From Geobacter sp. (lineage in GTDB: Bacteria > Desulfobacterota > Desulfuromonadia > Geobacterales > Geobacteraceae), in assembly GCA_016177775.1 (NCBI GenBank), contig JACOUQ010000027.1, positions 1 through 64,000 of the forward strand: DNA of 64,000 nt. The letters run 5' to 3'. The position numbers and the translations under genes are program-made. Below the pieces are notes generated by a model. It was not told where the DNA came from and ran no database searches. It saw only the letters and a list, made by a program, of their open reading frames with translations. Below are positions 21,772 through 24,725 of this stretch, one piece after another. Position 1 is the stretch's first letter. Each line of letters begins with the position of its first letter.

Positions 21772-22863
21772 ATGTGCAAAAAAGTTTTTATCGCCGCCAC
21801 CGGCCAGAATTGCGGAAAAACCACCGTCAGCGTGTCGCTCATGCACCTGGCCCGGAAAAAGTATGGGCGCGTCGGCTTCATCAAGCCGATCGGCCCCAAG
21901 TGCACCGAGTTCAACGGCATCACCATGGACAAGGACGCGGCGCTCATGGCCAGGATTTACGGCCTGGACGACGAGGCCCGCTTCATGTCCCCCGTGGTCC
22001 TCACCAAGCACTGTACCCGGCGCTTCCTCGACGGCGAGATCCCTGCAGATGTCCCGGTGCAGCAAATTGCCGAGGCCTGCCGGGAGCTGGAGGCAAGGAA
22101 CGACTTTCTTATAATCGAAGGTGCCGGTCATGGCGGGGTCGGTTCGGTCATCGGCCTGAACAACGCCAGGGTGGCCAAAATGCTGAATGCGCCGGTGCTC
22201 ATGGTCTCTGGCGGCGGCATCGGCAACGTCATCGATGCGGTACAGATGAACCTTGCCCTCTACGAGCGGGAACAAGCCGACGTTCGCCTGCTCATGGTGA
22301 ACAAGCTCTTCCCCGAGAAGAGGGAGAGCTCTCTCGCATACATCAACAAGGCCTTCGCCGGGACTCCCATCCGCGCCATGGGCGCTTTCGACTACTCGCC
22401 GGTACTCGCCAACCCGACACTGCAGAACATTTCCAGGCTCCTCAAGGAGCCCCTGAACGGCGACTCTGAAGGACGCCACAGGATCGTCAACCACATCCAG
22501 CTCGGCGCCGCATCATCCCAGCGGGTCATCGACGGCCTGAAGGATTCGACCCTCCTCGTCACCACCAGCTCCCGCGACGAGCTTATCGTCACCGTTTCTT
22601 CCCTTTACCACATCCCGGAATACAAGGAGATGATCGCCGGCCTGATCGTCTCGGGCTTCGCCCAGATGTCCCCCATCACCAAAAAAATCCTGGACGACAG
22701 CAACATCCCCTACATCCGCTTCCACGACACCACCGCAAACGCCTTCATGGCCCTCAACTACCACGTCTCCAAGATCAGCGCAGAGGACGAGGAAAAGCTC
22801 TCCCACATCATGTCGCAGGCGGAAACCGATATCGATTTCGACGCTATCGACGCGCTGCTTTGA
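21772..22863 (+). CDS. BioD-like P-loop and DRTGG domain protein (Pta N-terminal-like)
   Basis: A 363-residue protein. It has a dethiobiotin synthetase-like P-loop domain with Walker A ATGQNCGKTT (residues ~8-17), IIEGAGHGGVG, and MVSGGGIGN, followed by a DRTGG-type domain (HIQLGAASSQRVIDGL, then LLVTTSSRDELI). This matches the N-terminal half of long phosphotransacetylases without the catalytic Pta domain, so it is likely regulatory; its ligand is unknown. Its last eleven codons are duplicated beyond the adjacent hicAB pair at 23568, and the gene's likely terminator now sits after that second copy. Confidence 0.85.
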   Translation: MCKKVFIAATGQNCGKTTVSVSLMHLARKKYGRVGFIKPIGPKCTEFNGITMDKDAALMARIYGLDDEARFMSPVVLTKHCTRRFLDGEIPADVPVQQIAEACRELEARNDFLIIEGAGHGGVGSVIGLNNARVAKMLNAPVLMVSGGGIGNVIDAVQMNLALYEREQADVRLLMVNKLFPEKRESSLAYINKAFAGTPIRAMGAFDYSPVLANPTLQNISRLLKEPLNGDSEGRHRIVNHIQLGAASSQRVIDGLKDSTLLVTTSSRDELIVTVSSLYHIPEYKEMIAGLIVSGFAQMSPITKKILDDSNIPYIRFHDTTANAFMALNYHVSKISAEDEEKLSHIMSQAETDIDFDAIDALL

Positions 22864-22866
22864 TTC
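22828..22866 (+). repeat. 39-base direct repeat, left copy (gene 3' end)
   Basis: The last codons and stop of the BioD-like gene. The first 24 bases are identical to 23568-23591, and 34 of 39 bases match overall. It marks the left border of the hicAB segment. Confidence 0.85.
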
Positions 22867-22949
22867 TCTTCGTAATTCTGCCCAACACAGAACTGCTCTT
22901 AACCATTACCTCAGTTCCGCCCAAGTCCATTTCTGTTAACTACCCCCTC

Positions 22950-22978
22950 TTGACAGCCAGTATCATTATTGATATCAT
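22950..22978 (+). promoter_or_regulatory. hicAB promoter, probably leaderless
   Basis: Perfect TTGACA at 22950-22955, a 17-base spacer, and TATCAT (5/6) at 22973-22978. The predicted transcription start coincides with the hicA ATG at 22985, and no Shine-Dalgarno is present before hicA. The spacer and -10 contain TATCAT repeats and a TGATATCA palindrome that could be the HicB operator. Confidence 0.65.
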
Positions 22979-22984
22979 TTATCC

Positions 22985-23245
22985 ATGGCAAGCCTGCTTG
23001 AAATCATTGGAAAAATGCGCACCAATCCTGCTGGGGTTCGTTTTGCCGATCTCTGCAGGGTATGCGACCATTATTTCGGGCAAGCCCGTCAGGCAAGCGG
23101 AAGTCATCGGGTGTACAAGACCCCTTGGATTGGTGACCCACGGATCAACATCCAGAACAGCAAAGGCCAGGCAAAAACCTATCAAGTCAAACAGGTACTC
23201 AAGGCAATTGAACGGTTGGAGGTCGAACATGGCACAGAGAAATGA
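22985..23245 (+). CDS. hicA: HicA-family mRNA interferase toxin
   Basis: An 86-residue HicA-like toxin. The catalytic histidine is in GSHRVYKTP, the family GSHxx motif. It is somewhat longer than the ~60-residue minimal HicA, with an N-terminal helix (LLEIIGKMRTNPAGVRFADL). The 3' end overlaps the hicB start by 17 bases. It is toxin first, antitoxin second, as usual for hicAB. The absence of an SD and the promoter position suggest a leaderless transcript. Confidence 0.85.
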   Translation: MASLLEIIGKMRTNPAGVRFADLCRVCDHYFGQARQASGSHRVYKTPWIGDPRINIQNSKGQAKTYQVKQVLKAIERLEVEHGTEK

Positions 23246-23558
23246 CAAATATACTTATCGGGTCACTTGGTCAGAGGATGATGCCGAATACGTGGGACTC
23301 TGCGCAGAATTCCCAAGTTTAAGCTGGCTTGCGCAGTCTCCTGAGGCAGCATTAAAAGGAATCCGCAAGCTTGTGGGCACAGTTATTGCCGACATGCAAA
23401 GCAATGAAGAATCTGTCCCGGAGCCAATCGCCACCAAACATTTCAGCGGCAAATTTATGGTACGTGTCCCACCTGATGTGCATAGACAACTTGCAATTCA
23501 GGCAGCTGAAGCCGGAGTGAGTCTCAATCGTCTGGCAAGCGCAAAGCTCAGTCACTAG
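23229..23558 (+). CDS. hicB: HicB-family antitoxin
   Basis: A 109-residue antitoxin. The N-terminal partially degraded RNase-H-like HicB domain contains YTYRVTWSEDDAEYVGLCAEFPSLSWLA. The C-terminal part (FMVRVPPDVHRQLAIQAAEAGVSLN) is a ribbon-helix-helix DNA-binding segment, so autoregulation at the promoter before hicA is likely. ATG 23229 has GGAGG six bases upstream. Frame continues upstream to 22860, but that is the alternative frame of hicA. Confidence 0.88.
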   Translation: MAQRNDKYTYRVTWSEDDAEYVGLCAEFPSLSWLAQSPEAALKGIRKLVGTVIADMQSNEESVPEPIATKHFSGKFMVRVPPDVHRQLAIQAAEAGVSLNRLASAKLSH

Positions 23559-23567
23559 GCCCAATCT

Positions 23568-23606
23568 GATATCGATTTCGACGCTATCGACAGCCTTCTT
23601 TGATCC
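23568..23606 (+). repeat. 39-base direct repeat, right copy (remnant gene 3' end)
   Basis: A second copy of the 3' end of the BioD-like gene, still encoding Asp-Ile-Asp-Phe-Asp-Ala-Ile-Asp-Ser-Leu-Leu-stop in principle, and followed directly by an intrinsic terminator. It looks like the original gene end displaced by the hicAB segment. Confidence 0.85.
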
Positions 23607-23620
23607 ATTGTTCGGACACT

Positions 23621-23646
23621 TAGGCCGCCTGATGGGCGGCCTTTTT
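23621..23646 (+). terminator. intrinsic terminator
   Basis: AGGCCGCC and GGCGGCCT form an eight-base stem with a short loop, followed by TTTTTAATTT. It is shared by hicAB now, and probably by the BioD-like gene before the insertion. Confidence 0.85.
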
Positions 23647-23680
23647 AATTTGAGCAACAAACACAAAGGAGTCGAAACAT

Positions 23681-23700
23681 CAAAGGGGGCTATGCCCCCC
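23681..23700 (-). terminator. stem-loop after the AT-rich hypothetical gene
   Basis: GGGGGC-TAT-GCCCCC, a tight six-base stem. On the minus strand it is followed by TTTGATGTTT, a poor T tract, so termination is plausible but weak. Confidence 0.45.
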
Positions 23701-23720
23701 GTGATCACTCTTCAGCACCT

Positions 23721-24725
23721 TCAGCAGCCGCCTGTCCCTCGTGATTGTGAATAAGGTTTCCAGGATTTCGAATTCGGCATTATCTCATATATCACTTCTT
23801 CTGCCCACTCCCAGTATCCTGAGTTCAAGAACACGAAAACCCTGCCATTTAGGTAGACAAACTTGTCTATCTCAAAACCGCCAACGCCTTTTCCATCAGG
23901 ATTCATTGGTATTACTTCGTCAAGCCTGACCTGTGCATTTTCTATATCCAATTGGTAAAGACCTGCCATGCAGCATTGCATTTCACCCTTTTCGCTGTGC
24001 CATACGGCAGATACAAATTGATTAGCAGTACTATTTTGTGGTCTATATACAGTAACTGCAGGGAGATCGAAGAATTTTATTTCTGAAGTTTTAACCCCTT
24101 CTGAATAAAATTCATTGTTTTTCAGGAATTGGGTGAACTTATCTTTCAGCATCTTTGCTAATACATTTTTAAAATATTCAGGGATTTTTGTTTCAACATA
24201 CGGGACTATATTCAGCTTTTTGATCAGAGGATGAGGTTGTTTCAAAACCACAATTTGCTCGTTAGAAAAATCGTGAACAACCGCCTTTTCAGGAGCAAGC
24301 TTGACAGTGATAGTATCGTCTCCACAACCGTCATCTACGTTATAATAAAATCCCTCTGTTGCCATGGCATAATTCGAATAATTTGACAGCACGGTATATT
24401 TATCACTCGACTTATTTACCACCATTTTTTGTAACAGCTTTGGTTTGATCCTGAAGATTTTCTGGACAGTTGGAACAGTCAACCCCCTCTCTTCCAAGGT
24501 CCGCCTGATTTCGTAATTCCAGCTTTCCAAGTCAGACTCGATCAAAATATAATTTTTTGACTGAGACATAACAAATTTGAAATTAAAGTAATCTCGTGCC
24601 GAATTGGCATTAGAGCCAATTTTATTATCACTACTATTTTGACTCTGAGCAATGCCAGTTTTTGTAAACACAATACAAGTTGTCACCAATAGCGCAATCA
24701 ATACAAAACAAGCATTGCCTTTCAT
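23721..24725 (-). CDS. hypothetical secreted protein
   Basis: A 334-residue protein of unrecognised family. The N-terminus (MKGNACFVLIALLVTTCIVF) is a signal peptide; no clear lipobox is seen. The mature part is Lys/Asn/Ser-rich with a CGDD segment, a CC pair in EMQCCMAGLYQLDIE, and a C-terminal Ser/Arg/Gly tail ending in Cys. Base composition is visibly more AT-rich than in flanking genes and the codons are A/T-ending, so recent acquisition is likely; it adjoins the hicAB insertion. No function can be proposed. Confidence 0.7.
   Translation of the reverse strand: MKGNACFVLIALLVTTCIVFTKTGIAQSQNSSDNKIGSNANSARDYFNFKFVMSQSKNYILIESDLESWNYEIRRTLEERGLTVPTVQKIFRIKPKLLQKMVVNKSSDKYTVLSNYSNYAMATEGFYYNVDDGCGDDTITVKLAPEKAVVHDFSNEQIVVLKQPHPLIKKLNIVPYVETKIPEYFKNVLAKMLKDKFTQFLKNNEFYSEGVKTSEIKFFDLPAVTVYRPQNSTANQFVSAVWHSEKGEMQCCMAGLYQLDIENAQVRLDEVIPMNPDGKGVGGFEIDKFVYLNGRVFVFLNSGYWEWAEEVIYEIMPNSKSWKPYSQSRGTGGC

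Follow-up and report, generated by a model that had tools for sequence, protein, structure and literature searches.

How did a solitary toxin-antitoxin pair come to lie behind a housekeeping gene, in front of a second copy of that gene's last codons? The spread of such modules to new chromosomes without mobility genes is poorly explained. In the window (by which we mean the whole 64,000-nucleotide stretch of Geobacter sp. DNA analysed here), a hicAB pair is found between two copies, R and R', of the 3' end of the gene upstream of it, which we refer to as the anchor gene. We argue below that hicAB most likely arrived by recombination anchored on this neighbouring gene rather than by means of a dedicated integrating element. 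The features of the locus are as follows.

21772-22863, forward strand: anchor gene, intact, with AAA_26 and DRTGG domains ('BioD-like', Pta N-terminal-like); identified from Pfam matches and orthologues.
22817-22866, forward strand: functional 3' end of the anchor gene, copy R; identified by reading, repeat search, shuffles and a genome-wide search.
22864-22949, forward strand: leader of 86 nt from the anchor stop to the hicAB promoter, without conservation at other hicAB loci.
22950-22978, forward strand: hicAB promoter, TTGACA-17-TATCAT, overlapping the palindrome TATCATTATTGATA (22961-22974); read from the sequence and kept upstream of hicA in relatives.
22985-23245, forward strand: hicA-like candidate toxin gene, 86 aa; an ORF whose homologues precede hicB in relatives.
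23232-23558, forward strand: hicB antitoxin gene, 108 aa (PF05534, E 6e-15).
23557-23606, forward strand: relic R', the anchor gene's last 14 codons and stop (AQSDIDFDAIDSLL and stop), abutting the hicB stop; identified by sequence comparison.
23622-23642, forward strand: intrinsic terminator with a 9-bp stem, 7 of the pairs G-C, followed by the T tail TTTTAATTT; read from the sequence.
23721-24725, reverse strand: ORF of 334 aa with low G+C; from the ORF list and composition.

A repeat search of the window matched 22817-22864 with 23557-23604 at 83% identity over 48 nt, with a start-to-start spacing of 740. The match contains an identical core of 24 nt (22828-22851 in R and 23568-23591 in R'). 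Direct reading of 22828-22866 against 23568-23606 confirmed the 34/39 identities and 24 identical bases given for these segments in an earlier note on this DNA; the 48-nt match from the repeat search extends these segments to the left. None of 100 shuffled sequences contained the core when as many as 3 mismatches were allowed, and R and R' are its only 2 copies at that tolerance in the genome (3.42 Mb, 85% complete); a chance origin of the match is excluded. Read in frame as protein, the left copy gives AETDIDFDAIDALL and a stop, and the right copy AQSDIDFDAIDSLL and a stop. In register, QAETDIDFDAIDALL and a stop on the left stands opposite HicB ending in SH, its stop, and then AQSDIDFDAIDSLL and a second stop on the right. 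The homology therefore comprises 14 codons and a stop, starting from the hicB stop codon. It conserves the protein on both sides of the core (A-E/Q-T/S before it, A/S-L-L-stop after it), as another allele of the anchor gene would be expected to do. The earlier note had placed hicAB exactly between the copies; both hicA and hicB do lie there, but the left side is not flush, with the 86-nt leader intervening, and on the right the similarity enters the hicB stop, leaving only 9 nt from that stop to the R' core. The terminator that had been reported after the second copy is present and, judged from its position, presumably was the anchor gene's old one.

The insert of about 740 nt encodes an antitoxin that belongs to the HicB family (PF05534, 55 bits against a cut-off of 21), and the hicA-like ORF overlaps the start of hicB (22985-23245 and 23232-23558). 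The 86-aa candidate toxin had no match to Pfam, NCBIfam or PADLOC models or to any PDB chain, and was called HicA from its position and from the 'toxin HicA' annotation of the gene beside a related hicB on Cupriavidus plasmids. The palindrome TATCATTATTGATA is likely to serve as the HicB operator. No inverted repeat bracketing 22864-23558 was detected in the repeat search, and the insert contained no transposase and no further ORF of note. G+C content is 0.50 in hicAB, 0.595 in the anchor gene and 0.582 in the window; it is 0.385 in the 334-aa ORF, which matched nothing in Pfam, NCBIfam or PADLOC and was absent from the vicinity of the anchor gene at eight loci in relatives. The entire stretch 22864-24725, scar and 334-aa ORF together, has the appearance of a variable island. 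The anchor protein matched PF13500 (E 2e-30) and PF07085 (E 3e-6), and its top NCBIfam match, under the model cut-off, was the N-terminal half of phosphate acetyltransferase; with these domains and this nearest model, the 'BioD-like' label it had been given is loosely right. Its orthologues in related genomes are 67-74% identical, and a search of genome contigs with the anchor protein found 3 loci, the best being 74% identical.

We compared the site across 48 family genomes, among which the window genome (G000) is the sole member of its genus. None of the eight orthologous anchor loci that were read has hicAB near the gene, and in four genomes of genus g6 (G007-G010) the anchor gene directly faces lon, giving the junction without hicAB that the earlier note had thought worth seeking in relatives. 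A degenerate gene-end pattern matched 31 of the 48 genomes, and two close matches, 740 nt apart, occurred in G000 only. A close second anchor-gene end is absent from the remaining 47 genomes; pairs of matches in these were far-apart paralogues. Because G007-G010 lack hicAB and two close gene ends occur in G000 only, the comparison supports insertion of a module at the anchor gene's 3' end, with the copies bracketing the insertion. Similarity of the trailing sequences to those of relatives was plausible by eye and non-significant against shuffles, with one exception in 16 tests, the right side of G034 (p 0.027), and was dropped as proof of which copy is native. A search for mosaic breakpoints in the anchor gene, with G004 as donor, gave breakpoints that disagreed among comparisons and did not locate the left crossover; shared high G+C at third positions may have driven the apparent G004 breakpoints.

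We favour the reading, with a probability of roughly 0.55, that the locus is the scar of a one-sided homologous recombination in the neighbouring gene, completed by an illegitimate join that displaced the old gene end. We infer the recombination steps, the donor and the identity of the older copy as follows. An incoming DNA fragment would have carried hicAB and, at one end, homology to the resident AAA_26-DRTGG gene. A crossover within that gene, probably of the RecA type, would either have exchanged its 3' end or formed it anew. Illegitimate recombination, with possible microhomology in the AGG common to hicB TAGG and gene CAGG, would then have joined the other end of the fragment, lying at the hicB stop or just past it, to the resident copy at a point 14 codons short of that copy's stop. 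By reading, this right junction is compatible with a microhomologous join of the kind seen in homology-facilitated illegitimate recombination (HFIR); HFIR inserts one end by homology and the other by an illegitimate join, and needs no mobility gene (PMC3240628, PMC2884548). The product would be a functional gene with an intact end, followed by hicAB, the old end as a 45-nt relic, and the old terminator. One-sided insertion accounts for the intact gene, the relic, its position at the hicB stop and the old terminator behind it, and also for the missing recombinase, the variable breakpoints at a second locus (hemW, described below) and the variety of modules. We also count in its favour the lower G+C of hicAB, the patchy occurrence of hicB, recurrence of the arrangement at hemW and at a mobB-like gene, and a bias of differences towards codon position 3.

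Homologues of hicB were found in 27/48 family genomes (E<=1e-3), 45/277 class genomes (E<=1e-20) and 54/395 sampled phylum genomes (E<=1e-15), and their distribution is patchy, in unrelated surroundings. The block common to relatives runs from the promoter to the hicB stop with mostly unrelated flanks, and no common end sequence was found across hicAB loci. We scanned 101 hicB-family loci with usable flanks for module-spanning direct repeats, at a threshold of 38 bits. Loci with flanks of less than 150 nt, duplicate entries (six, plus the second entries L156 and L157, removed before the count), L175 (same place as L137) and L041 (downstream sequence the same as L040) were excluded; hicB identity was at least 60% in 73 of the 101, the others being weaker relatives. 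Spanning repeats of at least 38 bits were present at 13/101 hicAB loci, compared to 9/400 random positions in 400 kb from eight same-phylum genomes (Fisher p 4.5e-5), and none of 172 mismatched flank pairs scored above 31.1 bits. With a stricter cut-off chosen post hoc (at least 45 bits and at least 75% identity), the counts were 11/101 and 0/400, the latter read from eight of the nine control matches, with the ninth at 38 to 38.3 bits.

By reading, five of the 13 repeats are gene-derived: those of the window, the hemW end in G575, a mobB-like end with its trailer in G412, thiM fragments in G173 and an internal aldolase fragment in G504 (loci L031, which is the window, L117, L132, L091 and L123). 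Set against all nine controls of 400, these five among 101 are not a significant excess (p 0.13). The remaining repeats, also by reading, look like dispersed intergenic repeats (L130, L116, L121 and L118), resemble integron attC sites (L095), or reflect a tandem hicAB (L137) or two neighbour genes related to each other at 63% (L170); at L148, a weak relative of HicB has a serine-recombinase-like ORF next to it. Repeats of 14 nt at L086, L089 and L093, with a similar but inexact one at L097, were rejected as chance codons in both neighbour genes by eye, and L086, L089 and L093 are apparently one orthologous hicAB site, also by eye. Several individual loci have features of their own. The tandem hicAB copies in G277:C134 (L137/L175) have at least 31 nt of upstream sequence in common, and hicAB in G070:C108 (L095/L099) is bordered, by eye, by attC-like repeats. 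Upstream of hicAB in G173:C4 (L098, 9140-9400), fragments derived from thiM form a patchwork with a repeated GCTTCCAAGTTGACAAGTTGAA element, and in G504:C22 (L123/L157) 47 nt from the interior of a class II aldolase gene are copied about 30 nt past the hicB stop. The copied piece comes from inside the neighbour gene in both G173 and G504, and for these two a repeat-generating accident fits better than end displacement.

The anatomy of an intact gene end, a module and a relic of the last codons recurs at hemW (G575 and G657) and at the mobB-like gene of G412, which is followed by hicAB and then by a copy of its own last 14 codons and trailer. The search for hicAB beside duplicated host-gene 3' ends that had been proposed in the earlier note was thus positive for these loci, but not for most of the 101. 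The hemW locus was followed in the genus of G575, where 17 genomes were searched and full hemW was read in 15. Displaced hemW ends lie downstream of an intact hemW in five of these 15 genomes. In G575 and G657, hemW is followed by hicAB and then by the last 25-30 codons of hemW; in the other three, the modules are not hicAB. The G664 module consists of cold-shock and KhpA genes (csp-khpA, named by likeness to the module in G305). In G305, hemW is followed by a csp-khpA module, CMD and an aldo/keto reductase, and then two more hemW ends in tandem. In G659, a 7.3-kb block encodes an iron alcohol dehydrogenase, two flavodoxins, DUF362, CMD, cupin, an aldo/keto reductase and an AraC regulator. No recombinase was found among the twelve module proteins scanned (four in one scan and eight in another).

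Since 88 of the 101 hicAB loci have no spanning repeat of at least 38 bits, and since the same gene-end duplication accompanies other modules at hemW, the repeat is a recombination scar rather than a property of hicAB; the suppositions that hicAB generally carries such repeats, and that the duplication is tied to hicAB, both fail. The hicAB blocks of G575 and G657 are about 95% identical, whereas hemW is 79% identical and similarity drops to 0.78 and 0.71 in the relic, which indicates that block and relic have separate histories. The module appears to have moved or been homogenised between species, with each relic apparently closer to the local sequence in these two genomes. That the two hicAB copies (L156 and L228) are so similar at the same junction suggests recent exchange or homogenisation. 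At L226 (G305:C25:187000-199000, about 2.06-5.2 kb), the displaced hemW ends behind two unrelated modules number three; the relic trailer there looks, by eye, like that after the functional hemW of G609, with a score within the shuffle range.

A reading that we regard as unlikely is site-specific integration, in which the 24-nt core would be an att site, R and R' would be attL and attR, and hicAB would be a non-autonomous or decayed CIME-like element. On this reading the tyrosine recombinase would have acted in trans or have been lost since, and the element would have brought the replacement gene end. One observation that counts against one-sided insertion belongs here: 24 identical bases within flanks of about 37% divergence have the look expected of an att core. 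Insertion at a gene 3' end with the reading frame restored, the five tyrosine-recombinase-family proteins encoded elsewhere in the genome, and the stacked relic ends in G305, which resemble tandem att sites, also speak for integration of this kind. However, none of the 5 genomic matches to the tyrosine-integrase family (PF00589) is on the window contig (C10), and the resolvase family (PF00239) had none in the genome, so that the earlier statement that no integrase is present is borne out for this contig. The core had 0 matches in a viral contig collection, its homology goes on upstream in codon register, and the hicAB loci have no shared end sequence. At hemW, where breakpoints were tested, the longest identical runs in R/R' pairs are only 11-18 nt, and the relics start at about residues 322, 341, 346-349 and 359, with no fixed point. 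Integration that regenerates the gene's 3' end, as the earlier note had put it, is thus right as to the place of insertion and not in the integrase sense, given the lack of an integrase or resolvase, the insert of about 740 nt and the variable hemW breakpoints.

Less likely still is that, in this lineage, the gene end was segmentally duplicated around hicAB, or the entire gene copied in tandem, and that the second copy was then deleted except for its last 14 codons. The decayed thiM relic of G173, present as two separated fragments beside hicAB, is what such a history could leave; the R' substitutions could be decay, and R2 and R3 of G305 form a clear tandem repeat of gene end and trailer. A tandem copy carrying hicAB should, however, repeat the leader after R', and the leader is not repeated; anchor paralogues in relatives are far apart. 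The pooled relics also show divergence of the coding type. Among 8 relic/functional pairs, which are not fully independent (six are hemW, two of these from G305), codon position 3 holds 82/134 differences (binomial P 4e-11 against one third), and 68 changed codons are synonymous and 39 are not. This third-position excess indicates that relic and functional ends diverged as working alleles, a pooled pattern that decay after duplication would not be expected to produce. The window pair taken alone gives a weak signal, with 4/8 differences at position 3 and 3/5 changed codons non-synonymous. The relic in each of G305, G659 and G664 resembles the hemW ends of other species more closely than that of its own genome, which ranks 11, 5 and 6 of 15, as predicted by replacement with an incoming allele; those of G575 and G657 are most similar to the same genome's own hemW end, which counts against such replacement there. 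Integron, transposon or Xer-type cassette exchange, with the gene-end repeat incidental, is very improbable: the attC-like borders seen by eye in G070 and the frequency of related HicB on Acinetobacter plasmids (207/229 plasmid records with a match) would suit it, but 9 nt between hicB and the R' core is too little for attC, transposase and inverted-repeat ends are lacking, and the repeat is derived from a gene.

Beyond this locus, we suggest tentatively, with more doubt than confidence, that small accessory modules, including solitary toxin-antitoxin pairs, spread by a general route that is free of mobility genes, beside the 3' ends of conserved genes. It is a similarly tentative part of this suggestion that an arriving module replaces the gene end, the earlier end staying on as a remnant. 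If true, relic gene ends would be countable and orderable fossils of successive module acquisitions, and the question of how stand-alone toxin-antitoxin pairs move would be answered. Because such a scar shows which gene was the anchor, and in which direction and what order insertions took place, the route can be tested from sequence, and the hemW locus, with displaced ends behind differing modules in 5/15 genomes, is a ready test bed.

The mechanism itself is already known. A literature search, mostly short of full text, found no published account of hicAB insertion by illegitimate recombination and no such scar in which a toxin-antitoxin pair adjoins a housekeeping gene. In the minimal mobile element of Neisseria, different gene modules occupy the space between conserved genes without mobility genes; this likeness aside, a gene-end relic is not known to be part of that concept. 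CIMEs and related integrative elements that use gene 3' ends leave an insert bracketed by copies of the gene's 3' end. The present locus is like them in its bracketing copies and in the identical 24-nt core at both junctions, and differs in that no recombinase was found, hemW breakpoints vary and there is no common att core. A ParDE-like toxin-antitoxin module of Microcystis lies between 152-bp direct repeats beside a gene; these begin 14 bp past the gene's stop and contain an inverted repeat, and are not the gene's end, unlike the repeats here (PMC7935541). HFIR has been described for three competent species and, at low frequency, for conjugation in E. coli (PMC3240628); it is also a proposed origin of dimorphic E. 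coli loci (PMC2884548). It is known from such transformation and conjugation experiments, whereas here it would be read from a natural scar that joins a housekeeping gene and a toxin-antitoxin module. We also draw a parallel in layout with the T6SS immunity arrays of Vibrio cholerae, for which the same process has been proposed, with successive insertions pushing old 3' parts downstream (PMC5361080). Both have a conserved upstream anchor, a new module inserted behind it, the old 3' part downstream and arrays of relics; the displaced parts are immunity genes or effector 3' ends in V. cholerae (PMC5361080), and the last codons of an unrelated housekeeping gene here.
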